Positions 11,467 through 34,514 of a DNA stretch of 34,514 nucleotides are shown here, one piece after another; position 1 is the stretch's first letter; each line of letters starts with the position of its first letter. The notes under the pieces are model-generated. The model saw only the letters and a program-made list of their open reading frames with translations. It was not told the DNA's origin and did no database searches. The translations under genes and the position numbers were made by a program. Where the stretch lies: contig JAFQAT010000069.1 of the NCBI GenBank assembly GCA_017399865.1, positions 1-34,514 of the forward strand, in the 5' to 3' direction. This stretch comes from Bacteroidales bacterium (lineage in GTDB: Bacteria > Bacteroidota > Bacteroidia > Bacteroidales > UBA932).

Positions 11467-12255
11467 ATGAGAAGGACCATACTGATTTCTTTGATTCTGA
11501 TTATGATCATGCCGACAATGCTTGACGCTCGTAGGAAAGGTCCTCGTGAAACCGGAATCGTGGCACACAGGGGATTCTGGAACTGCGAGGAGGCCGGATA
11601 TGCCAAAAACTCGATTGCCGCCCTCCGATGTGCCCAGGAGGCGGGATTGTGGGGCAGCGAATTCGATGTCAACATAACCGCTGACAGCGTGCTGATCGTA
11701 TATCATGACGGTGAGATCGACGGCAAGAGGATCGAGAAATACCCGTATTCGGAATTCAAGGATTTCAGGCTTGCAAACGGCGAACGCATTCCTACAATCG
11801 ACGAATACCTCGCCCAAGGCAGGAAATGCCCGGAGACCAAGCTCGTCTATGAACTGAAGACCCAGTCGTCTCCGGAGATCGAGGATGCATTCGTCAATCT
11901 CGCTGTGGCGAATCTTGCCGAGAACGGCATCCTTCATCCCGACAGGGTCATGTTCATATCATTCAGCATACACATGTGCCAGAGGCTTGCGGAGATGCTT
12001 CCGGGCTATACTGTACAGTTCCTTGGCTCAAGTCTGGATCCTGACCAGCTGAATGACCTCAAGGTCAATGGCGTGGACTATAACCATGAGGTGTATGTCA
12101 AGCATCCCAAGTGGTACAGGCGTGCCAGAAGGAACGGCATGAGCGTGAACGCATGGACGGTCAATGAAGAAAAGGATATGGTCCGCATGATAAAGATGGG
12201 CGTGGACCAGCTTACTACCGACAATCCTCTTCAGGCGAGGGAACTGCTCAAATGA
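11467..12255 (+). CDS. Exported glycerophosphodiester phosphodiesterase
   Basis: The enzyme family splits glycerophosphodiesters into glycerol 3-phosphate and an alcohol. This 262-residue protein has an N-terminal signal sequence (about residues 1-21, MRRTILISLILIMIM then TMLDA). The GDPD catalytic set is visible: HRG (34-36), Glu65 and Asp67 in GSEFDV, and HDGEIDG with His80. KLVYELKT supplies a further acidic metal ligand. The usual PENT segment after HRG is replaced by KNS, a modest deviation. The C terminus has the typical VNAWTVNEEKDMVRMIKMGVDQLTTDNP end. It is probably periplasmic or surface attached. Its stop overlaps the next start (ATGA), so the two are translationally coupled. Confidence 0.93.
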   Translation: MRRTILISLILIMIMPTMLDARRKGPRETGIVAHRGFWNCEEAGYAKNSIAALRCAQEAGLWGSEFDVNITADSVLIVYHDGEIDGKRIEKYPYSEFKDFRLANGERIPTIDEYLAQGRKCPETKLVYELKTQSSPEIEDAFVNLAVANLAENGILHPDRVMFISFSIHMCQRLAEMLPGYTVQFLGSSLDPDQLNDLKVNGVDYNHEVYVKHPKWYRRARRNGMSVNAWTVNEEKDMVRMIKMGVDQLTTDNPLQARELLK

Positions 12256-20162: not shown

Positions 20163-23030
20163 ATGGCAGAAGAAGGGAACATAATAGTAAGAAAAGCCAA
20201 GGTAAACAACCTGAAGGATATAACTGTCGAGATACCGCGAGGCAAGTTCGTGGTAATCACAGGCATATCCGGTTCGGGAAAATCGTCCCTTGCGTTCGAT
20301 ACTCTCTTTGCAGAAGGCCAGAGGCGCTTCGCAGAGAGTCTTTCTTCGTATGCCAGACAGTTCCTCGGCCGTATGTCCAAGCCTGACGTCGAGCTTATCG
20401 AGGGCATACCGCCGGCAATCGCCATAGAGCAGAAGGTGAATACACGCAATCCACGCTCTACAATCGCTACAAGCACGGAGATATATGATTATCTGCGTAT
20501 GATCTTCGCCCGTATCGGACGTACATATTCTCCTGTGACCGGTGAGGAGGTCAAGTGCCATACGGCAGGCGATGTCATGCGATATATCTTTGAAGGGGGA
20601 GCGTCTGCAGTATATCTTCTCGCAGACCTGAACTGGGATGCAAGAGAGGACAAGGTCGAGCTCATGCTCCAGCTGAAGGAGGAAGGTTATTCTCGTTTCT
20701 TTACAGATCGGGCTGTGCGTATCGAAGAGGTCATGAAGATGGCGCAGACCGGGGAGTATCCGTCTGAACTTTATCTTCTGATAGACAGACTGAAGGTGCC
20801 TTCCGTAAAGGACGGTCTTCCGGAAGAATCATATTCCCAGACAGACTGGGAAGACCTGCAGACCCGTCTTCATGCTTCGATTGATTCCGCTTTCGACAAG
20901 GGCAACGGCTCCCTTCTCGTGAGGAAGGAATATGCGGATTCCGGAAAAGTGGAGCTGAAAGACTTTATAAACCGGTTCGAGGCCGACGGAATCGAGTTCG
21001 CAAGGCCGGACGAATATATGTTCAGCTTCAACAGTCCTCTGGGCGCATGTCCTGTGTGCGGAGGTCTGGGACAGATCATCGGCATCAGCGAGGATCTTGT
21101 CGTACCGGACAAGAGCAAGACGATATATGATGGGGCCATAGCATGCTGGCGAGGGGAGAAGATGGGCTGGTTCAAGGACCAGCTGGTAAGGAACTCCGCC
21201 CGTTATGGCATACCTATATTCGAGCCCTACTGCAACCTTAGCCAGGAAGTCAAGGACCTTATCTGGAACGGGTGTCAGGGACCGACGGAAGAGGATTCGG
21301 TCTTCGGACTCAACGAATTCTTCAAGTGGGTCGAATCCAACAGGTACAAGATACAGTACAAGTACATGCTCAGCCGTTACTCGGGCAGGACGGTCTGCAA
21401 GGAATGCGGAGGCAGCAGGCTCCGTAAGGAAGCGATGTATGTGAAGGTGGGTGGAAAGACCATCCACGAGCTTCTCTGCATGAATGTGGAGCAGATGCTC
21501 CAGTTCTTCGAGAACCTTTCTCTGGAGGATTGGGAACAGAAGGTGGTCCGCAAGGCTGTGGAGGAAATCGAGTCCAGATTGAGGTATATTCTTGACGTCG
21601 GTCTGGGATATCTTACTCTGAACCGTACGTCAAACACCCTTTCAGGCGGTGAGAGCCAGAGAATAAATCTGGTGACTGCTTTGGGAAGTTCTCTGGTGGG
21701 ATCTCTATATATTCTTGACGAGCCAAGCATCGGGCTTCATCCGAGGGATACGGCAAGACTGATAGACGTGCTGAAACGCCTGCGTGACATCGGCAATACA
21801 GTTGTGGTAGTGGAGCATGATGAGGAGATAATGAGGGCAGCCGACCTTATCATAGATATCGGTCCTAAGGCCGGAGTCAACGGTGGAGAGATCGTTTATC
21901 AGGGGCGTCTTGACGGGGAAAAGACAGAAGAAGAAAGGTCGAGGTCGCTTACTCTCCAGTATCTGGGAGGTGACAGGACCCGCTATGTGAGAAAGAAGCA
22001 TTCATGGAACTATTCCATCACTGTGGAAGGTGCCATGGAACATAATCTTAAGGATATAAACGTGAAGTTCCCTCTCGGGGTCCTTACCGTAGTCACAGGT
22101 GTCAGCGGAAGCGGAAAGTCGTCCCTGGTGGGCGATATACTCTATCCTGCCCTGTACCGCCATATCAATCAGGCCGGTTCGGCACCGGGAACGTTCAGAG
22201 GCCTTTCCGGAAGCCTGGACCGCATCACCCAGGTGGAGTATGTGGATCAGAATCCGATAGGAAAGAGTTCCCGCTCGAACGCAGTCACATACCTCAAGGT
22301 ATATGACGATATCAGAAAGCTTCTTTCCGACCAGCAGTATGCAAGGATGAATGGATTTACTCCTTCCCATTTCTCCTTCAATATCGATGGAGGACGCTGT
22401 CCCGAATGTCAGGGCGAAGGATTCGTAAAGATCGGCATGCAGTTCATGGCAGACGTTTCCATGGTATGCGAGTCATGCGGAGGCAAGAGGTTCAGACCTG
22501 GTATTCTGGAAGTACGCTACAAGGAAAAGAACATAGATGACATACTCAATATGAGCGTAGAAGAGGCCATATCCTTCTTCGGCTCGCAGGATGATCCGGT
22601 TGCGAAGAGGATAGCCGAAAGGCTCCAGCCTCTGGTGGATGTAGGTCTGTCGTACATAAAGCTCGGACAGAGCAGCAGCACTCTCTCCGGCGGTGAGAGC
22701 CAGAGAATAAAGCTGGCATATTTCCTCTCTATGAGCGGCGAACAGGTGTCGAAGTCAAAGCAGCAGAAGATACTGTTCATATTTGACGAGCCGACCACAG
22801 GTCTGCATTTCTACGATGTCGAGAAGCTTCTCAAGTCCTTCGACGCCCTTCTGGCAAAGGGCCATACGATAGTCGTCGTCGAGCATAATCTGGATGTGAT
22901 CCGGGCAGCCGACTGGGTCATCGATCTTGGTCCTGAGGCCGGTGACGCTGGCGGCAGTCTGGTATACGCCGGCACACCGGAAGACCTCGCTGCATGCGAG
23001 TCTTCCCATACGGCCGCCTATCTTCGTTAA
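20163..23030 (+). CDS. uvrA: Excinuclease ABC subunit UvrA
   Basis: UvrA recognises damaged DNA and loads UvrB in nucleotide excision repair. The 955-residue protein has the duplicated ABC-ATPase layout. Walker A motifs are GISGSGKS (34-41) and GVSGSGKS (646-653). Each half has LSGGESQRI, followed by [11 protein letters not shown] and [11 protein letters not shown]. Zinc-binding Cys pairs are visible in CPVCGGLG with CKECGGSRL, and in CPECQGEG with CESCGGKRF. The second zinc module and its [12 protein letters not shown] context are typical of UvrA1. Length is normal. The stop codon overlaps the stop of the converging fimbrillin-like gene by 4 bases, with no space for a separate terminator. 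Confidence 0.98.
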
Positions 23031-25243
23031 GGCCTCACCAGTATAAGTGCCATCCCGCTTCTGTTTATAGGGTCTCCTGCAGTCATGTATACTATCCCTG
23101 ACCCGGGCTTCTTCAGATATAATGTGACTCCATGCCCGTCATCATCGACCCGGTAGTCATAGATGCCTCTGCTTTTGTCGTAGTTCAGTTCCTCATAACC
23201 AGGGTCGAAAGGAGCTGTCCGGGGATAGCACTCACACCAGACGCGTATGGTGTCGCCAACATGTCCTTCGATGTAGTTTCCCGGCATGATGTCGAATACA
23301 GGGATGACGGGACCTATGCCGCTTTTGTCAATCCTCCATCCGCTCTGGGACAGACCGTCATTTTCAGGGATGACGGTTATAGGATAATGGCTGTTTCTTT
23401 CTATGTCGTAGCGCCCTTCTTCGTCCTCGATATAAAATCTGTAGATCAGCGGACTGTCGTAGCTGATCAGATCGGACGACAGGTAATCCATCTCGATTTC
23501 CACGTATGACGCGGTGTCGACCGACAGTTCCTGACCCTGCATGTTCTCAAGCACATAGACGGAAACCTCGTCGCTCAATCCTCTGCTTCCGGAAATGTTC
23601 AGCGGCTTGCATTGTACGGCATCCAGTTCGGATCCCCGTTCAAACACGTCATGGTAGGAATACGCTCTTGATGGGACGGCTATGGATGCATATCTGGGAC
23701 AATTGCCGATGCTGACCCGTCTCACGGTTAGCCTGACGTCTTTTGAAAGACGGCTTCTGTCCATTCTCAGACTTATCTTTGCTGTAATGCGGACCAGATC
23801 GATGGCAATCTCTCCTCCAGGCTTTATGCCTTCGGCAAAAGCGCTCATGGGAAGCCCGTTACCGTATCCATCGCCTTCCTTCAGCTCCACAAACGACTTT
23901 TCCCACTCGGAATAATCCTTGATGTCAAGCTTCCGTCCAATATTGGCGAGAGCAGCTATGGTATAGTTTCTCCCTTTTATGAGCGGGATGCTGAATTCAA
24001 TGTCATCACTTTCTCGGATGCCATCTTTCCAGATAGTTTTTTCAACTGCTCCGTCAGCGAAGATCCATATGTTCATGTCGTTGATCTTCCCCTCGTCCTG
24101 AAGGCCTGCCTTTGTCCCGACGCCAGGCGGCCTCACGATGATTTTCGTGTTCTGGAACATTACCCGATTGTCGTCCTTATCCTCCCATGGCTTGACGCTC
24201 ATGAGAACGTCAGCATCCTCGGCGCCGATCGCTGTATCCGGATCCTTCATGCCTTTGCGTGAAATGGTGATGTTGAAGACATATCTGCTGTTTCTTTGGA
24301 TTCCCGGGTTTTCCGTGCCTTCCGAGCGGTTGATGTCTATCGGCCACCAGAATGTCTCGCCTCTGATCTTTCCTTCGATGACAAGCCTTGTGAACGGAGT
24401 GCCGGGTCCTTCCTTCTGACTTGTATTCGGATAGCATATGAAGCTTATTCCGGGCTCGACCGGTTTCCCGGATATGTTGAAGTCCATCTTGTGATATACC
24501 ATGTCAGGTTCGGCAAAGCATGCGACATCATCCATGTCCAGTTTTCTGGAATTGACGGTCTGACCAGGGACTATATGGCCGTCCGAAGTCAGAGGACATT
24601 GCGCGTTTACATTTGTCAGATATGCGCAGACATCCGTAATCTCCTCTCCTTCATATGCGCTCCCTCTGAAGTCGCACCGTATCGACTGCAGTACGATCTC
24701 GCTTGCCATTCTTCTCATTTCCATGTGACTGACTACGGGGCTGCCTGCCGTGACTTCTCCTTCAGCCGTCGCATACAGGGAACCACGTCTTTCCTTCTGC
24801 AGTTCAAGGTATACCTCGTCCAAGGCCTCAATCGAGTTTATGCCCGTCCAGTCATATATGGATCTTTGCAGATTGGCGCATATGAATACCTTCTTTCTTC
24901 CGCTTTGGGACCTTATTCCTATGCTGCTGCCGTCGAAGGTGTCCATCCGCTGGTAGGAATCAAGGTGACCTGCCCGGTCGTCGTCGAATGTGAATATGTC
25001 TATCGGTCCTGTCATGCTATTGTCCTCCAATACGTCCAGCGTGACCTTTGTCGTCACTTCGTTCCCGTCAGTTATCTCCGGATCCGTGCCTATTGGATCT
25101 TTACATGAAAACAGCGTCGGGAGAATGAGCAAGGTCGTGATAGTGCCCAGAGTGAGCTGTTTATGATATAGAAATAATCGCTTGAAAGAAATTGTAGATG
25201 TGAAACTCCTCTCCCGACTCCTGTTTTTCATGCTTCTGTTCAT
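23027..25243 (-). CDS. Fimbrillin-like surface lipoprotein (two-module)
   Basis: The 738-residue protein starts with a basic N terminus, a hydrophobic stretch (about 30-46) and a lipobox-like LFSC, placing the lipid-bearing Cys at residue 47. The body reads as beta-rich fimbrillin-type modules. The first ends in NSRYVFNITISRKG and VKPWEDKDDN. A second begins IIVRPPGV then MNIWIFADG and includes YTIAALANIG. Later, VSVYVLENMQGQELSVDTASYVEIEMDY, YRFYIEDEEGRYDIERNSHYPITVIPE resembles the DUF4906/fimbrial end domain. A final Ig-like region follows. A fimbrial tip or anchoring role is inferred. I chose ATG 25243, which overlaps the upstream stop (ATGA), over a longer frame reaching 25423. It is the second gene of a minus-strand operon. 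Confidence 0.8.
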   Translation of the reverse strand: MNRSMKNRSRERSFTSTISFKRLFLYHKQLTLGTITTLLILPTLFSCKDPIGTDPEITDGNEVTTKVTLDVLEDNSMTGPIDIFTFDDDRAGHLDSYQRMDTFDGSSIGIRSQSGRKKVFICANLQRSIYDWTGINSIEALDEVYLELQKERRGSLYATAEGEVTAGSPVVSHMEMRRMASEIVLQSIRCDFRGSAYEGEEITDVCAYLTNVNAQCPLTSDGHIVPGQTVNSRKLDMDDVACFAEPDMVYHKMDFNISGKPVEPGISFICYPNTSQKEGPGTPFTRLVIEGKIRGETFWWPIDINRSEGTENPGIQRNSRYVFNITISRKGMKDPDTAIGAEDADVLMSVKPWEDKDDNRVMFQNTKIIVRPPGVGTKAGLQDEGKINDMNIWIFADGAVEKTIWKDGIRESDDIEFSIPLIKGRNYTIAALANIGRKLDIKDYSEWEKSFVELKEGDGYGNGLPMSAFAEGIKPGGEIAIDLVRITAKISLRMDRSRLSKDVRLTVRRVSIGNCPRYASIAVPSRAYSYHDVFERGSELDAVQCKPLNISGSRGLSDEVSVYVLENMQGQELSVDTASYVEIEMDYLSSDLISYDSPLIYRFYIEDEEGRYDIERNSHYPITVIPENDGLSQSGWRIDKSGIGPVIPVFDIMPGNYIEGHVGDTIRVWCECYPRTAPFDPGYEELNYDKSRGIYDYRVDDDGHGVTLYLKKPGSGIVYMTAGDPINRSGMALILVRP

Positions 25244-25761
25244 TTTCTGTCTGTTCTGATTGTCCAATATATTCCGATACAGAGTTCCGTACCATTCAGA
25301 TTGTCTTCCTGTACTGCCTGCAGGATGTCTGTCCTCAGTGACATCATGGCGCATAGCCTCCTGCATATCGGTATGCAGTAGCCAGCCTCGATGCAGCAGT
25401 CCGCCCTGACATCTTCCGTACACTTGAGTCCGGTTTCCAGATATGCGCCTTCATATATGCTTTCAGGCCAATAGCGGAAACCGATCCGGCTGTTCTTTAG
25501 TATGGAACTTCTTTTCATCGGAGTGGCGAATTCGCCTGTGTGTTCCTCATATTCGCTGCGGTCCTTTCTGAATAATCCGCTGATGTCAGTATCAGTCCTC
25601 CACGTGACAGACCACTTCCGGCTGAATCCGCATCCAGCGGAAATGTTCATCCCGCTGGTCTTCAAGAAGCTTCCCACGTCAATGCCCAGACTGAAAACAG
25701 GCTGGGCATGTCCGCAGCAGCATAGAAGGAAGGCTGAAAGAATGGCAGAAATCCGTTTCAT
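25240..25761 (-). CDS. Small exported outer-membrane-type protein of the fimbrial operon
   Basis: The 173-residue protein has a signal peptide (MKRISAILSAFLLCCCGHAQ) and a short beta-rich body with alternating hydrophobic residues (SLGIDVGSFL, SAGCGFSRKWSVTW, RIGFRYW, YLETGLKC) ending CIGIYWTIRTDRK. It resembles the small DUF3575-type barrels that precede fimbrillin genes in Bacteroidales, but the match is by pattern only. I chose ATG 25761 because the signal peptide begins there; an in-frame start at 25803 would add 14 polar residues. Six Cys in the mature part is unusual for such a barrel. Its stop overlaps the next start. Confidence 0.65.
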   Translation of the reverse strand: MKRISAILSAFLLCCCGHAQPVFSLGIDVGSFLKTSGMNISAGCGFSRKWSVTWRTDTDISGLFRKDRSEYEEHTGEFATPMKRSSILKNSRIGFRYWPESIYEGAYLETGLKCTEDVRADCCIEAGYCIPICRRLCAMMSLRTDILQAVQEDNLNGTELCIGIYWTIRTDRK

Positions 25762-25772
25762 CTTTTTTTTCG

Positions 25773-25780
25773 CAAAGCTA
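25773..25780 (-). promoter_or_regulatory. -7 box candidate for the fimbrial-type operon
   Basis: TAGCTTTG on the minus strand fits TAnnTTTG. It is only about 12 bases before ATG 25761, giving a very short leader, so it may be fortuitous. Confidence 0.3.
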
Positions 25781-25844
25781 TGCCTGCCGATCCGAATCAT
25801 CATCAGATCATAAAAAAGATTCGGCGGATTTTTCTTTTTTTTAT

Positions 25845-25970: not shown

Positions 25971-26624
25971 ATGGGAAAACTTGATTTATTTAAGATTTTC
26001 AGATCAAACAGAAATCATTATCTGCCGGTATTTGCCCAGCAGGCCACATATCTGCTTCATGCTTCTTCAACATTGTGCGAGATGACCGAGACGGTCGATC
26101 CTGTCCAATGGCGTAAGATGGAAAAGGAAATCAAGGCTTGTGAAGTGCAGGGTGATGCCCTTCTTACAGAATTCCATGAGCAGCTTTACGAAGGCCTTAT
26201 AAGGAAGATCAAGAGAAGCGACCTTCAGACTATCGCGATGAAGATCGATACTTTCCTTGACAATATAAACGATTCTGCGAAATCCATTCCGCTTTATATG
26301 CCTAAAAGGATAGATGCGCAGATTGCCGATCTTGCCCAGTACATCAATGCGGCAGCGGATTCGATAAAGAAACTGATGCCTCTTTTCACGGATCTGAAGA
26401 AGAACTATGCAAGGATTCTGGTCCAGTGCGAGAGAATAACTGAGCTTGAACATGCGGCAGATGACACGTTCGCGGAGTATATCGGATACATATTCACCCA
26501 TGAGTCCGATCCGATAGAACTCATGAAATACAAGAATATTGCTGAAGCCTTTGAATTGGCGACGGATGCTGCAAAAAGCGTCTCGGACAGCATTCGGAAG
26601 ATGCTGATGCGCTATCAGGATTAG
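25971..26624 (+). CDS. DUF47 (PhoU-like) phosphate transport regulator
   Basis: This 217-residue helical protein belongs to the DUF47/PhoU-divergent family. Features are the N-terminal LFKIFRSNRNHYLPVFAQQA, then KACEVQGDALLTEFHEQLY, TFLDNINDSAKSIPLYMP and the acidic ITELEHAADDTFAEYI. The E/D-x-x-x-D sites resemble PhoU metal-binding helices. Members usually sit next to a PiT phosphate transporter and are thought to regulate it; no transporter gene is present in the window, so its partner is elsewhere or absent. Its stop overlaps the stop of the converging glycerophosphotransferase gene by 4 bases. Confidence 0.9.
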   Translation: MGKLDLFKIFRSNRNHYLPVFAQQATYLLHASSTLCEMTETVDPVQWRKMEKEIKACEVQGDALLTEFHEQLYEGLIRKIKRSDLQTIAMKIDTFLDNINDSAKSIPLYMPKRIDAQIADLAQYINAAADSIKKLMPLFTDLKKNYARILVQCERITELEHAADDTFAEYIGYIFTHESDPIELMKYKNIAEAFELATDAAKSVSDSIRKMLMRYQD

Positions 26625-27826
26625 GACAGCTGATGCGAGGTCATCCACTCGCTCAAAGCCTTGCTTGAAGTCCCGTTTTCAACCATGCCTATCTTCTCCT
26701 CATAGAATCTGTCGAGATTCCGGAGGTAGGCTTCCATGTCGAATTCCTTTATCCTGTCAAGAAGTTCCTGCTCATTTCTTGCAAGCGGGAACGGCATTTC
26801 GTCGAACCTGAAGTAATAGCCCCTGTTGTATTTTTCGATATCCGTGGCATATAGCACGCATGGCTTGCGGAGCATCCCTATGTCGAACATCGAGCTGGAA
26901 TAGTCGGTAATAAGCATGTCCGTAATGCATAACAGGCCCTGCATGTCAGGATACGAGGTCGCATCAACGACTTTTTCGTAGCAGGTCAGCGAGGATGTGT
27001 CTACCTTGCCTATCAGATTAGGGTGCAGCCTCAGCAATACCGTGATTCCTGTGCCTCCGAAGATCTTGTCCAGCTCGGGAACCGTCTTCCCCCAGTCTAT
27101 CCTGTAAGGTTCGATGCTGTGGTCTGCCCTGAATGTAGGCGCATACAGTATTATCTTGTCGGAAGCGGGGATCGAATATGTCTTTCTTACATCATTTTCA
27201 ATCGTCCTGTGCCTTGCAGAGTCAAAGAAGATGTCGCATCTCGGAATACCCTTCTCCAGTATCTCTCCGGAATACCAGAACGATTCCTTGAGCAGCCTGG
27301 TCTGGAATCTGCACCCGGAAATCATCAGGTCGCATATCCTGGAGTCGATCTTTGCCTTCTTCAGATAGCTGTATCGTAGCTTGTCTTCTGCATCCTTCTC
27401 GATCTTCTTGAGCGCTACTCCTCCATGCCAAAGCATCAGGTATTTCTGACCCGGTCTTTTCGTCCAATACATTCTGTACGGGTCTGTGCGGGCGTTCGTT
27501 ATCATGAATTCTGCTGTGTTGACAAGTATGAAATACCGGAGCGAGAGATAGCGGAAGCATCTGATTCTTTTGTCAATTCCCGATATGTCCACCTTTCTTC
27601 TGAAGACCCAGCATATTTCGAACTCCGGGTTGTTTTCCAGAAGGTATTCCGTCAGGTACCGCGGATTGCATCCGTACTGCTTGAATGTGTACGCCCACAT
27701 CATCACCCTGCCTTTCCTCACTTTGGTGAAGCAGCGTATGATAAGAGAAAAGAGATTGCCGAAAGCCATGAAGATCCTGTTGAGCCTCCAGCTGATTGCC
27801 GATACCGTTTTCTTGACAGACATCAT
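26621..27826 (-). CDS. CDP-glycerol glycerophosphotransferase family protein (TagB/TagF-like)
   Basis: The enzyme family transfers glycerol phosphate from CDP-glycerol to a glycan or polymer at the inner face of the membrane, as in wall teichoic acid synthesis. This 401-residue protein has the family set: LWHGG (132-136), a middle with RCDIFFD, LYAPTFRA (227-234), LRLHPN (265-270) and LITDYSSSMFD (305-315), giving the paired His sites of the GT-B-like fold. A single N-terminal amphipathic region precedes it. The length equals TagB rather than the longer TagF. Acceptor and whether it adds one or many units cannot be read. It starts divergently from licD, 62 bases away; an alternative start is the next codon (27823). 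Confidence 0.88.
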   Translation of the reverse strand: MMSVKKTVSAISWRLNRIFMAFGNLFSLIIRCFTKVRKGRVMMWAYTFKQYGCNPRYLTEYLLENNPEFEICWVFRRKVDISGIDKRIRCFRYLSLRYFILVNTAEFMITNARTDPYRMYWTKRPGQKYLMLWHGGVALKKIEKDAEDKLRYSYLKKAKIDSRICDLMISGCRFQTRLLKESFWYSGEILEKGIPRCDIFFDSARHRTIENDVRKTYSIPASDKIILYAPTFRADHSIEPYRIDWGKTVPELDKIFGGTGITVLLRLHPNLIGKVDTSSLTCYEKVVDATSYPDMQGLLCITDMLITDYSSSMFDIGMLRKPCVLYATDIEKYNRGYYFRFDEMPFPLARNEQELLDRIKEFDMEAYLRNLDRFYEEKIGMVENGTSSKALSEWMTSHQLS

Positions 27827-27845
27827 ATCCTTTGCATTTGTATGC

Positions 27846-27853
27846 CAAAGATA
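27846..27853 (-). promoter_or_regulatory. -7 box of the glycerophosphotransferase gene
   Basis: TATCTTTG on the minus strand fits TAnnTTTG, 19 bases before the ATG at 27826. The 62-base gap also has to hold the licD promoter on the plus strand, where I see only a poor match (TATTTTTA, 27867-27874). Confidence 0.5.
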
Positions 27854-27888
27854 TGAAAAAAATGTCTATTTTTACAGATTGTTAATTT

Positions 27889-28713
27889 ATGGATGGATTT
27901 CGTCAGATGGATTTCAGCAGATATAACCCGGAAGGCTCTCTATTGCGTCGCGATCAGAAGGAATTGTTCCGCATTCTGACCGTTGTGGCGGATATATGCC
28001 GGGATAACGGAATACAGTGGTGGATGGATTCGGGAACTTTGCTCGGAGCAATGAGACATAAGGGCTTCATCCCGTGGGATGACGATATCGACATCGTGCT
28101 CATGAAGGAGGATTATGACAGACTTGAAAAGATCCTCTGCTCTCTTGAAAGCGATGAATTCGTGTTCCATTGCATCAGGACGGACAAGGACTACATCAAC
28201 CCTTTCGGAAAGTTCCGCAAGAAGGAAGGATGTGTGAAGGTGAAGAGCAAGAGATACGATTACTACCGATGGGCAGGAATCGGCATCGACATCTTCGCCA
28301 TCGAAAGGACAAACAGACTTTCAGTTTCGCTGGCACGTTTCTTCTATAAGATGTTTATAAATTATACGGTCCATATCAGATGCCGCCGCGTGAGGCATGC
28401 CCTCATCTCATTCGGACAGTTCATATGCTTCAGGCTGCTTTTCCCTGTATTCAGGCTTGTCGGAAAGATAAATCCGAAAGGGGAATACCATTATGCGTTG
28501 GGAACCGGATGGACGAAGGCCGCATATACTCCGGATATGCTTCTGCCTGTGACTGAAGCTGAATTCGAAGGGATGATGATGCCTGTCCCTCATGATCCGG
28601 ACAAGTATCTGAAGAAACTATACGGCGACTGGAGGAAACTTCCGACTGAGGAGCAGATCCGCAAGGCCATCCATTGTCAGGAATATAAGGAAGAAATTTT
28701 CGGTAAAGAATAG
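27889..28713 (+). CDS. licD: LicD family phosphotransferase
   Basis: LicD proteins move phosphocholine or other phospho-alcohols from a CDP carrier onto glycan acceptors. This 274-residue protein has the classic block WWMDSGTLLGAMRHKG...PWDDDIDI (44-69) including the DDDID metal site of the nucleotidyltransferase fold, followed by ELYxDWR-like LKKLYGDWRKLPT near the C terminus. It is of full family length. It heads a plus-strand run with tagD, a Stealth gene and a GT2 gene at 2-6-base spacing. A choline-kinase/cytidylyltransferase fusion lies at the other end of the cluster, making phosphocholine the likeliest donor group, though glycerol phosphate is possible given tagD. Confidence 0.93.
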   Translation: MDGFRQMDFSRYNPEGSLLRRDQKELFRILTVVADICRDNGIQWWMDSGTLLGAMRHKGFIPWDDDIDIVLMKEDYDRLEKILCSLESDEFVFHCIRTDKDYINPFGKFRKKEGCVKVKSKRYDYYRWAGIGIDIFAIERTNRLSVSLARFFYKMFINYTVHIRCRRVRHALISFGQFICFRLLFPVFRLVGKINPKGEYHYALGTGWTKAAYTPDMLLPVTEAEFEGMMMPVPHDPDKYLKKLYGDWRKLPTEEQIRKAIHCQEYKEEIFGKE

Positions 28714-28719
28714 CAAGTG

Positions 28720-29112
28720 ATGAAAAGAGTCATAACATACGGTACATTCGACCTTCTTCATTATGGTCATATAAATCTTCTTCGCAGGGCTAGGGAACTG
28801 GGAGATTATCTGGTGGTAGTCGTTTCATCTGACGAGTTCAACTGGAACGAGAAAGGCAAGAAATGCTATTTCACCTATGAGCAGCGCAAGGCTATGGTGG
28901 AGTCCATCAGGTATGTTGATCTGGTGATACCGGAAACAAACTGGGAGCAGAAGCGCACGGATGTCCATGATTATGATATCGACGTATTTGTGATGGGTGA
29001 TGACTGGGAAGGAAAGTTCGACTTTCTGAAGGAGGAAGGCGTGGAAGTTGTCTATCTTCCGAGAACACCAGAAATCAGTACGACCCAGATAAAGAACGAC
29101 CTTAACAAATAA
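28720..29112 (+). CDS. tagD: Glycerol-3-phosphate cytidylyltransferase
   Basis: TagD makes CDP-glycerol from CTP and glycerol 3-phosphate. The 130-residue protein has the full set: YGTFDLLHYGHINLLRRA (7-24) with HYGH (14-17), RKAMVESIRYVD, MGDDWEGKFD (82-91) and the signature RTPEISTTQIK (105-115). Length is normal for TagD. I chose ATG 28720 over the GTG at 28717. It sits between licD and the Stealth gene and should supply the donor for the TagB/TagF-like enzyme on the opposite strand. Confidence 0.95.
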   Translation: MKRVITYGTFDLLHYGHINLLRRARELGDYLVVVVSSDEFNWNEKGKKCYFTYEQRKAMVESIRYVDLVIPETNWEQKRTDVHDYDIDVFVMGDDWEGKFDFLKEEGVEVVYLPRTPEISTTQIKNDLNK

Positions 29113-29114
29113 GC

Positions 29115-29993
29115 ATGGATATAGTAATTACATATGTCGACGGTAACGATCCGGTCTGGAAGGCGGATTATCAGAAGCATACTGATGTCCCTGTCATGGA
29201 GAAGCGTTTCCGTGACTGGGGTACTCTGAAGTATCTCCTCAGAGGAATAGAGGTCAATATGCCTTTCATAAGGAATGTATATCTCGTGGTATCCCATCCG
29301 TCTCAGGTCCCTCAGTGGGCTGACACTGAGAATCTCAGGGTGGTTCTTCATGAGGACATAATCCCTCAGGACTATCTCCCTACCTTCAACTGCAACCCTA
29401 TAGAGATGCATCTTCATCGTATTGAAGGACTTGACGAGGAGTATCTGTATTTCAATGACGACCTGTATCCTCTGAGGCCTTGCAGGCCGGAAGACTTCTT
29501 CCGTGGAGGAAAGGGAGTGCTTAAGTTCAGCCGCCATTACTTTGTGTCCGGCATGTACAAGCATATCTGCAAGAATTCAGATACATCGGCAAGGAAGGCC
29601 TTGGGCATGCCCTCTTCATGGGCATTCATCCGTCCTCAGCATACATGTACAGCCATGCTGAAAAGTCAGTGCGAGGAAGTGTATGCCAAGCTTGAACCTG
29701 AGATCCTGAAGTCGCTGACCAAGACGAGGACTGCAGACAATCTGAACCAGTACCTGTTCCTGGACTACCAGTATTTCAAGGGACTGATGATTGATGAAAA
29801 GATTTCCAACAAGCATTTTTCGGTAGCTCTTACATCTCCGGAAAAGCTGAAGTCATATATCCTGAACCCGGACAGGAATCTGTTGTGTGTCAATGATGTA
29901 CGATTGAGTGAGAAGAAGTACGAGCTTCTTCGTGAGGCGATGCTTTCTGCGTTAGAGACCAGATTCCCGTACAAATCCAGATTTGAGAAGTAG
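29115..29993 (+). CDS. Stealth-family capsular polysaccharide phosphotransferase
   Basis: Stealth proteins transfer hexose 1-phosphate units from nucleotide sugars, creating phosphodiester links in capsules. This 292-residue protein has the expected conserved regions: CR1 at the start (MDIVITYVDGNDPVWKADYQ), CR2 (about 31-130) with RDWGTLKYLLRGIE, YLVVSHPSQVPQW, and LYFNDDLYPLRP (111-122), and CR3/CR4-like HTCTAMLKSQCEEVY and TADNLNQYLFLDYQYFKG. Start is ATG 2 bases after tagD stops. Donor sugar cannot be read from sequence. The next gene is 2 bases downstream. Confidence 0.92.
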   Translation: MDIVITYVDGNDPVWKADYQKHTDVPVMEKRFRDWGTLKYLLRGIEVNMPFIRNVYLVVSHPSQVPQWADTENLRVVLHEDIIPQDYLPTFNCNPIEMHLHRIEGLDEEYLYFNDDLYPLRPCRPEDFFRGGKGVLKFSRHYFVSGMYKHICKNSDTSARKALGMPSSWAFIRPQHTCTAMLKSQCEEVYAKLEPEILKSLTKTRTADNLNQYLFLDYQYFKGLMIDEKISNKHFSVALTSPEKLKSYILNPDRNLLCVNDVRLSEKKYELLREAMLSALETRFPYKSRFEK

Positions 29994-29995
29994 AT

Positions 29996-30928
29996 ATGGA
30001 CAGATACAGGATATCCCTTGTCGCTCCCGTCTATGGAGTCGAAAAATATATAGCGAAGTTTGCTGAATCAGTCCTGGACCAGACCTATCAGGACATCCAG
30101 TTCGTATTCGTCAATGACGGTACCAAAGATCGCTCCATGGATATCCTCCGTCAGCTCATCGAAGAACGTTATGCACATCTGAAACAGCGGATTCTGATCG
30201 TGGATAAGGAGAACGGCGGGCTTCCATCTGCCCGCAAGGCGGGCCTGGATGTGGCCGAAGGCGAATACATTCTCTTCGCAGATTCAGATGACTGGCTGGA
30301 AACGGATGCTGTAGAGAAGGTGATGGCTAAGGCAGATGAAACGGATGCCGACATCGTTTATTTTGACCTTGTAAAGGAATACGGCCACAGGACGAGCTAT
30401 AAACGCGAAAGGGACTACACCGGCAAGACAAAGGAAGACTTCATAGTCAACATGTTCAATTACAAGTCTTTCGGATATACCGTGACCAAATGCTTCAAGA
30501 GAAAGCTTTATACTGACAATGTGATATATATGCCTAAGCTGGGAATGCATGAGGATATATATCTGATGTCTCAGATAATCTTCTACGCCGGGTCGCTGGT
30601 GCATATCCCGGAAGCATTGTATCATTACAGGAAAGACAACCCGGATTCATTCTGTGCCCAGGACAGGCACAAGAGGCATATCGCATCCACTACAAATCTT
30701 CTTGACCTGTACGAACACTATAGGGACAACCTTAAAGGCAGTCCGATCGAAAAGGTTGCCGGAAGCATTCTTATGCGTGCCGGACAGCACAGCATCATGC
30801 ATGGATATGACTTTTATGAGAAGTATCCGTATCTTGCAGGCGATCTGCGCAAGACCCGCATCAGCTGCAGATATCGTACGGCTGTACCTATGCAGATCAT
30901 TGTGAAGATATATTCTCTATTCCGCTGA
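29996..30928 (+). CDS. Family 2 glycosyltransferase
   Basis: This 310-residue protein is an inverting GT-A enzyme: ISLVAPVYGVEKYI (6-19), VFVNDGTKDRS (37-47), ENGGLPSARKAGL (72-84) and FADSDDWLE (94-102) with the DxD-type metal site. No membrane helices are obvious, so it likely works at the cytoplasmic side on a lipid-linked acceptor. Sugar specificity is not readable. It ends the plus-strand run and its 3' end overlaps the converging choline gene by 12 bases. Confidence 0.9.
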   Translation: MDRYRISLVAPVYGVEKYIAKFAESVLDQTYQDIQFVFVNDGTKDRSMDILRQLIEERYAHLKQRILIVDKENGGLPSARKAGLDVAEGEYILFADSDDWLETDAVEKVMAKADETDADIVYFDLVKEYGHRTSYKRERDYTGKTKEDFIVNMFNYKSFGYTVTKCFKRKLYTDNVIYMPKLGMHEDIYLMSQIIFYAGSLVHIPEALYHYRKDNPDSFCAQDRHKRHIASTTNLLDLYEHYRDNLKGSPIEKVAGSILMRAGQHSIMHGYDFYEKYPYLAGDLRKTRISCRYRTAVPMQIIVKIYSLFR

Positions 30929-32506
30929 GTATAGGGCCATAGCCTTTTCCGAGTAGAGATATGTATATCTGTACCAGAGATCAAGAAACTCTCCGGTATC
31001 CACTCCGTTGCACTCCTGATAGATTGCCCACAGATACCAGCAGTATGAAGCGATCGCCGTGTAAGCCAGATAGTGGCGCAGCTCTTCGTCTGACGGCTCA
31101 TGTCCCAGATATGCCTTTATGGCGAACAGAGCCTCTTCGTAGTTCAGGTCGGAGCAGGCTATGAATGACCCCAGGTCCTGTGCCGTGTCTCCCTGTCCCG
31201 AGTATTCCCAGTCGATGAGCGTCATGTCGATGTCTTCCTTGCTGTCATCGGAAATCAGGAAGTTTGCCGCAAGGGCATCGCAATGGTTGAGGCATTCCGG
31301 CCAGTTGTCTTCCATAGCATGGAGGTGGAGACGGCTGATGCGCTCGTTGAGGTCGTAGAAGTCCGGAGTCTCGTCTTTTCCCAAGGCCTGTATCTTCTGT
31401 AAGAAGTCGTTAGCCTGATCCCAAAGCCTGTACGGGAATTCAGACTGGATATTGGCTTCATGCAGTCTGGCGAGTATGCTGAGCGCCTTGGAGAGTTCCG
31501 CAGGATTATGGTAGTCCAGGATGCGCGCGTTCTCGACGAAGTAAGATATCTTCCATCCTTCCTCTGCATCCATATGGATGAATGTCTTGTCCAGACCAAG
31601 GGACTTTGCCACCTGCATGCTGAAATACTCGCTCCTTCGGTTGAGGAACTCTTCCGTTCCGTCGCCCGGATGGCGGTAGACATATTTCCTTCCGTCTTTG
31701 ATACATGTGAAGCGGAATGAAGAATTGGTCATTCCGTTCTTGAGGACGACGATCTCGTCTATGTCCTTTTCTTCGCAAGACAGCACGGAGCAGATGTTCT
31801 TCATTATCCTGCTTCCGGTGTCGTTCAGGTACTTCGGATCGAAAGCGCGAAGCTCGGCCAACGAATCGAATTCTTCGATCTCATGCGGCCTGTACCTGCG
31901 CATCTTCATAGGCGGAAGCTCTGCAATATGACGCAGATATACGTCTTCCCAATACTCGCTTCTGGTCTTCTCGTCCTTGTATTCTTCGACCATTATCTCG
32001 CGGAATCTTTCAGAAAACTCCTTGCTGAAGAATGCGTGGCCGAGCATGTACCATGAGTCTCTGCCTCCGACGGTAACTTCGGTGATGTTCCCTTCCTCAT
32101 CTGTTGTGAGGCAGTATTCGTTGGTGGGGCCTTCTGCGTACAGGGCGGAATAATAGCTGTTCTTTACATCCTCTATGAATACGTTCTCAGGGAAATAGTT
32201 GTCCGAAGAGCATATGTAGGTATCCTCGAGGCTGTCGAGCACGCGCATGATGGATGAGGTGTTGTTGTATATGCTGTAATCCTCGTTCATGACAAGCTTT
32301 ACTCCGTACTTTTCCTCCAGATACATGAACAGTCCGCTCTTGTATCCTATAACTATAAGTATATCCTTGATGCCAGCTTCCTGGAGCTGACGTATCTGGC
32401 GCTCGATCAGAATCTCACCTTTTACTTCGAGGAGGCCCTTCGGCTTTTCGTATGAGAGGGGAGCGAATCGTGAGGATGTCCCCGCAGCCATGATTATCGC
32501 ATTCAT
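30917..32506 (-). CDS. Fused phosphocholine cytidylyltransferase (LicC-like) and choline kinase (LicA-like)
   Basis: One 529-residue chain carries two enzymes. Residues 1-~230 are a sugar-nucleotidyltransferase fold: MNAIIMAAGTSSRFAPLSYEKPKGLLEVKGE, with MNEDYSIYNNTSSIMRV and the SSDNYF metal-type site, as in LicC (phosphocholine + CTP to CDP-choline). Residues ~245-529 are an APH/ChoK kinase: NGMTNSSFRF, KYVYRHPG, HCDALAANF (408-416; the catalytic Asp410 and Asn415) and TLIDWEYSG (429-437, with Asp432) as in LicA. LicB-like choline uptake is absent from the window. Substrate could be choline, ethanolamine or a related amino alcohol; choline is favoured by LicD. It lies after nqrF on the same strand, past a terminator. 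I see no good -7 box in the 67-base gap. Confidence 0.88.
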   Translation of the reverse strand: MNAIIMAAGTSSRFAPLSYEKPKGLLEVKGEILIERQIRQLQEAGIKDILIVIGYKSGLFMYLEEKYGVKLVMNEDYSIYNNTSSIMRVLDSLEDTYICSSDNYFPENVFIEDVKNSYYSALYAEGPTNEYCLTTDEEGNITEVTVGGRDSWYMLGHAFFSKEFSERFREIMVEEYKDEKTRSEYWEDVYLRHIAELPPMKMRRYRPHEIEEFDSLAELRAFDPKYLNDTGSRIMKNICSVLSCEEKDIDEIVVLKNGMTNSSFRFTCIKDGRKYVYRHPGDGTEEFLNRRSEYFSMQVAKSLGLDKTFIHMDAEEGWKISYFVENARILDYHNPAELSKALSILARLHEANIQSEFPYRLWDQANDFLQKIQALGKDETPDFYDLNERISRLHLHAMEDNWPECLNHCDALAANFLISDDSKEDIDMTLIDWEYSGQGDTAQDLGSFIACSDLNYEEALFAIKAYLGHEPSDEELRHYLAYTAIASYCWYLWAIYQECNGVDTGEFLDLWYRYTYLYSEKAMALYSAE

Positions 32507-32527
32507 ATAAGATGTCGTTAAAATTGT

Positions 32528-32557
32528 TAAAGGCCCGGACTGTCGGCCGGGCCTTTA
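32528..32557 (-). terminator. Terminator after nqrF
   Basis: TAAAGGCCCGG pairs perfectly with CCGGGCCTTTA (11 bp, 8-base loop); on the minus strand it is followed by CAATTTTAAC, moderately U-rich. It separates the nqr operon from the licC-licA fusion downstream. Confidence 0.8.
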
Positions 32558-32573
32558 TGTTGAGAATGGAGAC

Positions 32574-33833
32574 TTATGCTCCGAAGTTGTCGTAGAGGAT
32601 GTTCTCTGGTGGAACTCCGAGTGAGTCGAGGAGGTTTACAACCGCTCCGACCATCATAGGAGGTCCGCACATGAGGTAAAGTGCATCTTCTGGGTTCTCA
32701 TGCTGCTTGAGGTATGTTTCGAACATCACGTTGTGTACGAAACCTGCAACATATGGAACACCTGCTGCATCTGCCTCCGGATCCGGTCTGTCAAGTGCAA
32801 GGTGGAACTTGAAGTTAGGGAATTCCTTCTCGATTGCATGATAGTCATCGAGGTAGAATGCCTCCTTAAGCGCACGTGCGCCATAGAAGAAGTTCACCTT
32901 TCTTGAAGTCTTCTCTGTCTTGAAGAGATGCATGATGTGGCTTCTCATAGGGGCCATACCTGCACCACCGCCGACGAAGATCAGCTCGGTCTCCGGAGAG
33001 AGGTCCTTTGGAAGGAAGAACTCGCCGTAAGGGCCTGAGATGGTGATCTTGTCACCTGGCTTGAGTGAGTAGATGTATGAAGAGCAGATACCTGGATTTA
33101 CGTCAACCCACTTTCCTGCAGCCCTGTCGAACGGAGGAGTTGCGATACGTACGTTGAGCTTGATGATGTCTCCCTCTGCAGGGTAGCAGGCCATAGAGTA
33201 CGCACGTACTGTAGGGGTTGGGTTCACCATCTTGAGGGTTCTGAGTCCCATCTTCTCCCAATCTTCCTTGTACTGGTCGTCCACGTCGATGTCCTTATAG
33301 TCTACAGTTACTGCAGGGACGTCGATCTGGATGTATCCGCCTGACTGGAAGTTGAGGTGCTCGCCTTCAGGAAGCTTCACCACGAACTCCTTGATGAAGG
33401 TAGCCACGTTGTGGTTTGAAACCACCTCGCATTCCCACTTCTTCACGCTGAGGGCAGAAGCCGGAACTTCGATTGACATGTCTTCCTTGATCTTCACCTG
33501 GCAGCCGAGACGCCAGTTGTTTGCGATCTGCTTGCGGTTGAAGAAGCCGACCTCTGTAGGGAGGATCTCTCCGCCACCTTCGGTCACGCGGCACTTGCAC
33601 TGTCCGCAGGCGCCCTTTCCGCCGCATGCTGAAGGAAGGAAGATCTTCTGCTCTGCGAGGGTTGAGAGAAGGTTTCCGCCAGGAGTCACCTCGACGATCT
33701 TGCTTCCCTCGTTGATATTGATCTTAACTGTTCCTGAAGGTGTCAGCTTCGTCTTGATGAAGAGGAGAAGCGCCACCAGAATGAGTGTGACGATCACGAA
33801 GACAATCACAGCAAAGAGTATTGTTTGTGTCAT
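32574..33833 (-). CDS. nqrF: Na+-translocating NADH:quinone reductase subunit F
   Basis: NqrF is the NADH entry subunit of the Na+-pumping Nqr complex. It has an N-terminal membrane helix (about 4-27). A 2Fe-2S ferredoxin domain follows with Cys70, 76, 79 and 111 (ACGGKGACGQC and LGC). The FAD site shows RAYSMACYPAE and the NADH site GGGAGMAPMRSH and LMCGPPMMVGAV. It ends in DNFGA, typical of NqrF. Length (419) is normal. A strong AGGAGGA ribosome binding site precedes the start, unusual for this phylum. It is the last gene of the operon. Confidence 0.97.
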   Translation of the reverse strand: MTQTILFAVIVFVIVTLILVALLLFIKTKLTPSGTVKININEGSKIVEVTPGGNLLSTLAEQKIFLPSACGGKGACGQCKCRVTEGGGEILPTEVGFFNRKQIANNWRLGCQVKIKEDMSIEVPASALSVKKWECEVVSNHNVATFIKEFVVKLPEGEHLNFQSGGYIQIDVPAVTVDYKDIDVDDQYKEDWEKMGLRTLKMVNPTPTVRAYSMACYPAEGDIIKLNVRIATPPFDRAAGKWVDVNPGICSSYIYSLKPGDKITISGPYGEFFLPKDLSPETELIFVGGGAGMAPMRSHIMHLFKTEKTSRKVNFFYGARALKEAFYLDDYHAIEKEFPNFKFHLALDRPDPEADAAGVPYVAGFVHNVMFETYLKQHENPEDALYLMCGPPMMVGAVVNLLDSLGVPPENILYDNFGA

Positions 33834-33850
33834 ATTCTTGTCCTCCTATA

Positions 33851-34468
33851 TTAAAGCTGAATACCCATGAATGTCATGAATGCAATACCCATGAGACCTA
33901 CGGTGATGAATGTGATACCAAGGCCCTTGAGTCCTGCAGGCACGTGTGAATAAGCCATCTTCTCGCGGATTGCGGCAAGAGCCACGATGGCGAGCCACCA
34001 GCCGATACCTGAACCGAGAGCATATACTACCGGTTCGCCGAAGCTCACGAAATCCCTTTCCTGCATGAAGAGCGAACCACCGAGGATCGCACAGTTCACT
34101 GCGATGAGCGGAAGGAAGATTCCTAGCTGTGAGTAGAGTGCCGGAGTGAACTTCTCGACAACCATCTCGACGATCTGTACGATTGCGGCGATGACAGCGA
34201 TGAACACGATGAAGCTGAGGAAGCTCAGGTCAAGGCTTGCATATTTCTCGCCCATCCATGCGAGTGCGCCCGGCTTGAGGATGTACTCGTTGAGGAGATA
34301 GTTGACAGGAAGAGTGATGAGAAGCACTGCGATAACGGCAATACCGAGGCCGTTAGCTGTCTTCACGTTCTTTGATACCGCCAGGTATGAACACATACCA
34401 AGGAAGTAGGCGAATATCATATTGTCGATGAAGATCGACTTTACAAATAAGCTAATATAATCTGCCAT
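33851..34468 (-). CDS. nqrE: Na+-translocating NADH:quinone reductase subunit E
   Basis: NqrE is one of the paired six-helix membrane subunits of Na+-NQR. The 205-residue hydrophobic sequence starts [24 protein letters not shown] and contains [19 protein letters not shown] and [15 protein letters not shown], the conserved half-channel with the iron-ligand Cys regions (GMCSY at 24-28 and VNCAI). Gene order nqrD-nqrE-nqrF and the 17-base gap to nqrF are typical. Confidence 0.96.
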
Positions 34469-34487
34469 AGTTTTCTTTAGTTATGTG

Positions 34488-34514
34488 TTATTTTTCCTGA
34501 AGGTCCTTCTGGAT
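34488..34514 (-). CDS. nqrD: Last codons of nqrD (5' part outside the window)
   Basis: Reading the minus strand from the window edge gives IQKDLQEK followed by TAA, 19 bases before nqrE. Position in the conserved nqrABCDEF order, rather than the eight residues themselves, supports nqrD. Confidence 0.7.
   Translation of the reverse strand: MQKDLQEK

Follow-up and report, generated by a model that had tools for sequence, protein, structure and literature searches.

Six adjacent genes between positions 26621 and 32506 of contig JAFQAT010000069.1 from a Bacteroidales bacterium (assembly GCA_017399865.1; the whole 34,514-nucleotide contig is "the window" below), which is uncultured, probably add groups of phosphocholine and of glycerol-phosphate to a sugar on the cell surface, judging from the families to which their products belong. 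They encode a TagF-like glycerophosphotransferase, a LicD-family phosphotransferase, the cytidylyltransferase TagD, a Stealth-family sugar-phosphate transferase, a GT2 glycosyltransferase and LicCA, a fusion of LicC and LicA. It is fairly likely that these genes represent an exchangeable cassette, which decorates a surface glycan and occupies a site between uvrA and nqrF. This site is a locus of variable content, a feature that the first-pass annotation had not recognized; related species carry other sets of glycan genes there or none. All six open reading frames were intact, each with a clear match to a Pfam or NCBIfam family, and coordinates, family matches and motifs agreed with the first-pass annotation, which had named the same six families.

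Predicted activities of the six gene products

The two halves of LicCA were assigned by sequence matches to solved structures. Residues 2 to 224 matched LicC of Streptococcus pneumoniae (PDB 1jyk, 7.9e-35) and residues 234 to 508 a choline kinase (4r77, 5.7e-21); CDP-choline is the most likely product on this sequence evidence. Two parts of a Lic-1 pathway were thus found in one protein, the LicA choline kinase and the LicC phosphocholine cytidylyltransferase, the latter with mixed specificity residues. R13, K23, D102, H408, D410, N415 and D432 were retained in the window protein. Across 101 aligned LicCA sequences, G9 and all of these residues except D410 were invariant, and D410 was present in 99.

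The third Lic-1 component, a LicD transferase, was found as a member of PF04991 with a predicted donor, and it is the only LicD gene detected in the host genome. It reached 67 bits with the NCBIfam model of the Mf1 cholinephosphotransferase, the cut-off of which is 225; Mf1 of Mycoplasma uses CDP-choline to place phosphocholine on a glucolipid (PMC11982090; this and the other papers cited by PMC number were available as excerpts).

TagD exceeded the cut-off of TIGR01518, the model used as a sign of the teichoic acid pathway, and gave 192 bits with the glycerol-3-phosphate cytidylyltransferase structure 1coz, in line with the formation of CDP-glycerol. The top PDB match of the TagF-like protein was TagF (3l7i, 1.4e-42), to the catalytic region of which residues 38 to 393 aligned. 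H134 and H268 were intact; their counterparts are apparently replaced in structures 3l7j and 3l7m. The curated TarF, TarL and TarB models nevertheless all remained far under their cut-offs, although PF04464 matched. The best of them was TarF (388 positions) with 174 bits compared to a cut-off of 550. The Stealth protein matched GlcNAc-1-phosphotransferase and CpsY (8j2n) in the PDB, and its conserved region CR1 scored 20.4 bits, under the cut-off of 27.2. The highest mean hydropathy over 19 residues among the six proteins was only 1.58, so that all of them are read as cytoplasmic or peripheral.

In the proposed pathway, LicCA would phosphorylate choline and convert the product to CDP-choline, and TagD would supply CDP-glycerol. 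A cytoplasmic acceptor would receive a sugar from the GT2 enzyme and a sugar-1-phosphate from the Stealth enzyme. The TagF-like enzyme would then attach a single glycerol-phosphate or a few of them, LicD would attach phosphocholine, and export of the finished product would fall to proteins encoded at other loci. As acceptor, the most likely candidate would be an oligosaccharide of the type of a lipopolysaccharide (LPS) or lipooligosaccharide core or another membrane-anchored one, and a short surface glycan is the probable, albeit not assured, target of these phosphorus-linked groups. A gene of the glycerophosphodiester phosphodiesterase family (PF03009) was seen at positions 11467 to 12255 of the window, about 14 kb from the cassette. 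It is speculative that its product could free glycerol-3-phosphate and choline from glycerophosphocholine for TagD and LicA.

A variable site between uvrA and nqrF

Matches to nqrF were obtained in 189 of the 198 same-genus genomes searched, and 60 stretches next to nqrF were then chosen by hand from these matches. This set favored long contigs and close relatives and is not a random sample, and for three of its members (G399, G078 and G395) it was known beforehand that LicCA and nqrF share a contig. Linkage of uvrA to nqrF, at a distance of 2.4 to 15.5 kb and in the same orientation as in the window, was found in 35 of the 60 stretches; in a 36th, L177, uvrA was on the other strand, and this stretch was scored as unlinked. 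Reading of the 35 linked stretches revealed only flank genes (FimD-like and PhoU_div, with or without waaA) in 9 and at least one glycan-type gene in 23, with 3 unclear. The PhoU_div, FimD-like and small barrel-like flank genes recur at this site in relatives.

A stretch was counted as positive when it contained, at any position, at least one match of at least 50 bits to the six window proteins. The comparison set comprised 20 unlinked stretches of at least 17 kb, the five shorter unlinked ones being excluded. A gene of the cassette families was present in 18 of the 35 linked and 0 of the 20 unlinked stretches (Fisher P = 4.6e-5), in 15/32 and 0/20 without the three foreknown LicCA carriers (P = 1.4e-4), and in 15/33 and 0/19 when L177 was in addition counted as linked (P = 3.0e-4), but since the rows are related by descent in all three comparisons, these values are not clean probabilities.

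Between the same boundaries, genome G006 possesses a different cluster with genes for Stealth, GT2, two LicD proteins, LicCA, an amidohydrolase, a LicC-like, an IspD-like and a short-chain dehydrogenase/reductase protein. In G416 and G322, nqrF was 99% identical and UvrA 84 to 85%, yet their stretches gave zero matches to TagF-like, TagD and LicCA and contained LicD, Stealth and GT2 at 47 to 75% identity together with other genes. Near-identical nqrF genes next to different site content suggest gene exchange. Further genes at the site in relatives encode the 3-deoxy-D-manno-octulosonic acid (Kdo) transferase WaaA, a lipid A acyltransferase, NeuB, Caps_synth and more glycosyltransferases. The gene waaA was assigned in six stretches, one by a Pfam test and five by clustering with that one. 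By their predicted functions, waaA and the genes for the acyltransferase, NeuB and Caps_synth point to surface glycolipids.

Distribution of the gene set and lineages of LicCA

A sample of 400 same-genus genomes, drawn evenly from a genus of more than 400 species and including the host as G000, contained LicCA matches at E ≤ 1e-20 in 26 genomes. As read from the table of matches, 17 of these were near full length and 2 (G021 and G286) were cut by contig ends; in G173 and G213 the halves were in separate frames, and the remaining 5 were single domains. At E ≤ 1e-60, LicCA was present in only 1 of 392 evenly sampled Bacteroidota genomes, the host itself, and absent from the other 391. A wider scan of contigs added L033 and L034, labeled Bacteroidales, and a Bacteroides bin, L062. 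In the latter (Bacteroides sp. NALB_7821a_19), LicCA was placed amid very close Lachnospiraceae/Clostridium rows, one of them from the same NALB series, so this is perhaps a binning error or a misassigned bin.

TagD scored above the curated cut-off in 4 of the 400 genomes (G000, G021, G033 and G336), of which only G000 and G021 were also listed for LicCA. With the TagD model at 1e-30, 57 of the 400 genomes matched, these four included, and one of the matches was beside LicCA in G109. Most of the 57 matches sit in frames of about 450 amino acids (for example, G365:C22 and G109:C1). At L034:7907-9244, a protein of this type combines a cytidylyltransferase with a Gfo/Idh/MocA-type domain and may act on a CDP-polyol in two steps.

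The full set of six genes was seen only in G000 and G021. The identities in G021 were 83% for TagF-like, 79% for LicD, 95% for TagD, 89% for Stealth, 89% for GT2 and 84% for LicCA, the last over 27% of the length because the contig ends there. Five of the six genes, at 45 to 77% identity, were present in G265, which has in place of TagD another cytidylyltransferase (97 bits with TIGR01518, cut-off 165.4) and an Asn_synthase-like gene, both on the strand opposite to LicD, Stealth and GT2. The exact six-gene combination is lineage-specific. The first-pass annotation had named co-occurrence in relatives as a check: it was mostly lacking for the exact set, with TagD and LicCA together only in G000 and G021, but the site and the combination of LicCA, LicD, Stealth and GT2 do recur in the genus. 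Rarity of the exact set would fit a decaying or transient insertion that lacks a function; with six open frames, intact catalytic motifs and retention of all six genes in G021, this can hardly be the case.

Phylogenetically, among 101 rows, the window LicCA grouped with L032, L033 and L034, all labeled Bacteroidota (SH-aLRT [Shimodaira-Hasegawa-like approximate likelihood ratio test] support 100), and this group was located beside one clostridial row (support 87) among Bacillota. Thirteen other same-genus LicCA rows formed a distant clade and two more another one, on long branches of 2.48 and 3.68 and with a placement flagged as unsure. By our own count, LicCA shared a stretch with uvrA and/or nqrF in 13 of the 19 genomes with a full or contig-cut LicCA (G000, G021, G265, G006, G399, G078, G395, G221, G244, G273, G192, G109 and G286); no linkage was visible in the other 6 (G264, G116, G110, G376, G251 and G020), some of them on short contigs. 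LicCA proteins of at least two lineages are therefore located at the same site, and the tree fits separate transfers and an old divergence alike.

The stretches L033 and L034 contain LicCA together with a gene for an EamA transporter, assigned by Pfam in L033 and by 88% protein identity in L034, a gene for a small probable outer-membrane protein, and LicD. The LicCA gene in these stretches (L033:10001-13153 and L034:10001-13159), followed in both by the EamA transporter gene, encodes a 1,050-amino-acid tandem protein LicC-LicA-LicC'-LicA'. Its halves are about 23 to 24% identical, and the second half may handle another amine. Both records are RUG isolates, a name from which we take them to be of rumen origin; one close LicCA record originates from water buffalo cecum. 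A neighbor of LicCA with about 240 to 260 amino acids recurs at L033:9210-9992, L034:9259-9990, L202, L204 and L213; neither of the two examples run against Pfam gave a match. On visual inspection it resembles an outer-membrane barrel, with a signal peptide, strands rich in aromatic residues and Phe at the C terminus, and is possibly a choline channel. At L032:4639-6133 and L033:5115-7730, the LicCA loci encode a cytidylyltransferase accompanied by one or two Asn_synthase-like proteins; the L032 pair occupies the position of TagD in the window, and its Asn_synthase-like protein had no solved relative at E ≤ 0.01. Next to the second LicCA lineage, an amidohydrolase-like gene (538-amino-acid frame) recurs at L112:9837-11450 and related loci.

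Alternative explanations and the acceptor

Several observations weigh against a glycan decorated with phosphocholine, and each is given here beside the alternative or the acceptor which it concerns. The first of them concern the substrate. Two positions of LicC have been reported to tell it apart from PntC, an enzyme for aminoethylphosphonate (PMC6697681). According to a hand count from the alignment of LicCA with 1jyk, LicC Asp105 is Ser100 in the window protein and Asp192 is Glu187, the latter in agreement with PntC Glu196. Trp136 of the LicC aromatic box is a Tyr in the window protein. The first domain also matched 6pd1, a nucleotidyl transferase/aminotransferase, at 1.8e-6. The fusion might accordingly activate ethanolamine, aminoethylphosphonate or a similar amine, or another small alcohol or phosphonate, instead of choline. 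This is unlikely: Glu occurred at the Asp192 position in all 101 LicCA rows, the streptococcal ones included, and is for that reason not distinctive of the window protein; Ser occurred at the Asp105 position in 97. The second half of LicCA is a kinase with choline kinase structures as best matches, which a pathway for aminoethylphosphonate should not need, and no aminotransferase or phosphoenolpyruvate mutase was among the Pfam-nameable genes of the window, the rest of the host genome not being searched.

The neighborhoods of LicCA need to be considered for the fate of CDP-choline. They comprised the best 80 of 480 wider LicCA loci, 17 same-genus LicCA stretches and 20 background stretches. 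LicD was found in 26 of the 80 (18 of the 47 with at least 17 kb), 13 of the 17 and 0 of the 20; 5 seeds of the LicD profile lie in the counted loci, 3 among the 26 and 2 among the 13, and without them the counts are 23/77 and 11/15. In 54 of the 80 best loci, this profile detected no LicD. A LicB-like EamA profile matched in 11 of the 80 (2 seeds included), 0 of the 20 and none of the 17, and a LicB-like importer was not found in the host genome with one EamA query, the genome being 77.8% complete. The sole PDB match of LicD was FKRP. This is a ribitol transferase, and LicD enzymes can take other donors (PMC11982090).

LicCA might serve the synthesis of phosphatidylcholine and merely neighbor the glycan genes, as in Treponema denticola, the LicCA of which has the same fusion architecture (Kent et al. 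2004, as cited in PMC8590670) and provides CDP-choline to a cholinephosphotransferase that forms phosphatidylcholine (PMC8590670). The host genome contains one CDP-OH_P_transf protein, which matches the CDP-alcohol phosphatidyltransferase pattern, and this signature was also present in 1 of the 17 same-genus stretches, L199. The host protein, however, has 236 amino acids and is encoded on a different contig beside acyltransferase-like and small membrane-protein genes, as read from the translations. The signature was absent from the 80 best LicCA loci and the 20 background stretches, and the window LicCA, in contrast to that of T. denticola, shares its cassette with glycan transferases and with LicD, which is also present in most same-genus LicCA stretches. 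Phosphatidylcholine as the purpose of LicCA is highly unlikely, and linkage to LicD and rarity of the phosphatidyltransferase signature favor, on balance, the decoration of a glycan.

A true repeating capsule polymer, with the TagF-like protein as polymerase, is a doubtful explanation, albeit one to be taken seriously. The cassette encodes TagF-like, TagD and GT2 proteins, and Gram-negative capsules of such a type are polymerized by TagF-like enzymes (PMC5974469, PMC11924219), which have the CDP-glycerol chemistry and the TagF fold in common with the window protein; Campylobacter jejuni HS:1 likewise has a glycerol-3-phosphate cytidylyltransferase (PMC11924219). These polymerases are large, with a fused glycosyltransferase domain (a domain up to residue 1095 in HS1.09, PMC11924219; 1,149 amino acids in 8qoy), whereas the window protein is short, stands alone and has choline genes added. 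With its 401 amino acids and its distance from the TarF cut-off, the "teichoic-acid-like" polymer of the first-pass annotation was not upheld. No exporter, TagO/TagA initiation or TagGH export protein was among the Pfam-nameable window genes, the host genome not being searched for the TagO/TagA and TagGH proteins. Wzy_C gave no match in the host genome at its 77.8% completeness, in agreement with the modification of an existing glycan, which had also been proposed at first.

Concerning the acceptor of such a modification, the waaA genes that other species carry at the site suggest an LPS core by their predicted function. With a waaA query, however, neither the host nor 14 of 15 relatives gave a match, several of the 15 being at least 90% complete, and the single positive one was the genome that supplied the query. 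An LPS acceptor in this lineage is weakened by this result, and the host lineage would possess either a divergent waaA or no ordinary LPS.

Arrangement, flanking genes and assembly

The host genome is a draft of 2.19 Mb in 83 contigs. The six genes form three blocks (Table 1) and not a single operon: the TagF-like gene is divergent from the LicD-TagD-Stealth-GT2 block, and LicCA is convergent with GT2, with coding ends that overlap by 12 bases. The start codon of LicD may be at 27889 or 27907, and that of TagD is GTG at 28717 or ATG at 28720. Left of the cassette are genes for PhoU_div, the small barrel-like protein, the FimD-like protein and UvrA, and right of it nqrF and nqrE.

Table 1. Positions of the cassette genes, flanking genes and a hairpin in the window
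Feature	Position	Strand	Evidence
uvrA, left boundary of the variable site	20163-23030	+	UvrA DNA-binding and ABC domains
FimD-like and small barrel-like proteins, recurrent flank	23027-25803	-	NF052322, 34 bits (below cut-off); PF06321, 27 bits (over cut-off)
PhoU_div/DUF47, left neighbor, part of the recurrent flank	25971-26624	+	PF01865, 2e-15; recurs at same site
TagF/TarF-like CDP-glycerol:glycerophosphotransferase, 401 aa	26621-27826	-	PF04464, 1.1e-68; His134 and His268
LicD-family phosphotransferase, 274 aa, probable phosphocholine transferase	27889-28713	+	PF04991, 1.7e-38; W-DDDID motif
TagD glycerol-3-phosphate cytidylyltransferase, 131 aa	28717-29112	+	TIGR01518, 206 bits (cut-off 165.4); HxGH and ISTT motifs
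Stealth-family sugar-phosphate transferase, 292 aa	29115-29993	+	PF11380 (CR2), 1.4e-31
GT2 glycosyltransferase, 310 aa	29996-30928	+	PF00535, 1.2e-29; DSDD motif
LicC-LicA fusion, CTP:phosphocholine cytidylyltransferase and choline kinase, 529 aa	30917-32506	-	NTP_transf_3 and Choline_kinase
Terminator-like hairpin, gap between nqrF and LicCA	32529-32556	.	Spotted by eye, no tool score
nqrF and nqrE, right boundary of the variable site	32574-34468	-	TIGR01941, 581 bits; TIGR01940, 321 bits

A misassembly is unlikely. The same order was found in G021 with its own TagD, on a contig that ends inside LicCA, and in L032 with TagD replaced. An invertible promoter or phase-variation switch was looked for, and no TTG-N17-23-TANNTTTG site was present within the cassette. 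The inverted repeats listed for positions 26500 to 34514 had at most 23 nucleotides, were 73 to 84% complementary and did not flank promoters. Searches for tRNAs and Rfam RNAs found nothing. For a viral origin, 21 pattern matches among viral contigs were obtained, none of them related to the LicCA fusion, and the GC content of the cassette (0.45 to 0.52) was within the range of the window (0.42 to 0.55), without the signal of a foreign island.

Relation to known systems and biological meaning

Lic-1 (LicABCD) of Haemophilus influenzae and S. pneumoniae resembles the cassette in the reactions of LicA and LicC and in having a transferase of the LicD family, but in the window LicC and LicA are fused, LicB is not adjacent, and the genes share a Bacteroidales glycan locus with those for TagD, the TagF-like protein and Stealth. 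A pneumococcal cps-type locus similarly has fixed boundary genes that enclose exchangeable glycan genes; in the Bacteroidales locus, uvrA and nqrF form these boundaries, and no polymerase or flippase was seen in the window. The phosphocholine O antigen of Proteus mirabilis O18 is encoded by lic genes inside a Gram-negative surface-glycan locus, as here, but with separate licA, licB, licC and licD and a flippase, and the term "glycerol" is absent from its main text as available (PMC8027243). The excerpt of a survey that covered the phosphocholine pathways of 26 species lacks the terms "bacteroid," "licCA" and "fusion" (PMC10434233), and that of a paper on the Capnocytophaga capsule has no choline terms (PMC5156936). 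Among the literature matches listed, there was no report of the set of LicCA, TagD and Stealth in Bacteroidota, though this does not prove that none exists, and these matches and the excerpts named no Bacteroidota phosphocholine pathway. Each single chemistry is already known. Within the reach of the searches, what is new is the gene set, its occurrence in Bacteroidales and the exchange site between uvrA and nqrF.

Surface phosphocholine on bacteria is a ligand of natural antibodies and of C-reactive protein. It also contributes to host mimicry (PMC10434233). As phosphocholine is recognized by the immune system, the cassette matters if it decorates a surface sugar. Tentatively, the uvrA-nqrF site may be an exchangeable, serotype-like locus of an uncultured Bacteroidales genus, which has recruited phosphocholine genes of at least two lineages, that of the window possibly from Bacillota, so that Bacteroidales commensals would display phosphocholine on changing glycans; in the boldest form of this proposal, lineages without a recognizable waaA would build an LPS substitute resembling lipoteichoic acid there. 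In a Bacteroidales genus so rich in species, a defined locus of this exchangeable kind would provide a genetic handle on phosphocholine-bearing commensals and on the diversification of their surfaces, for which the linked genomes that carry the cassette and those that lack it form natural test pairs.

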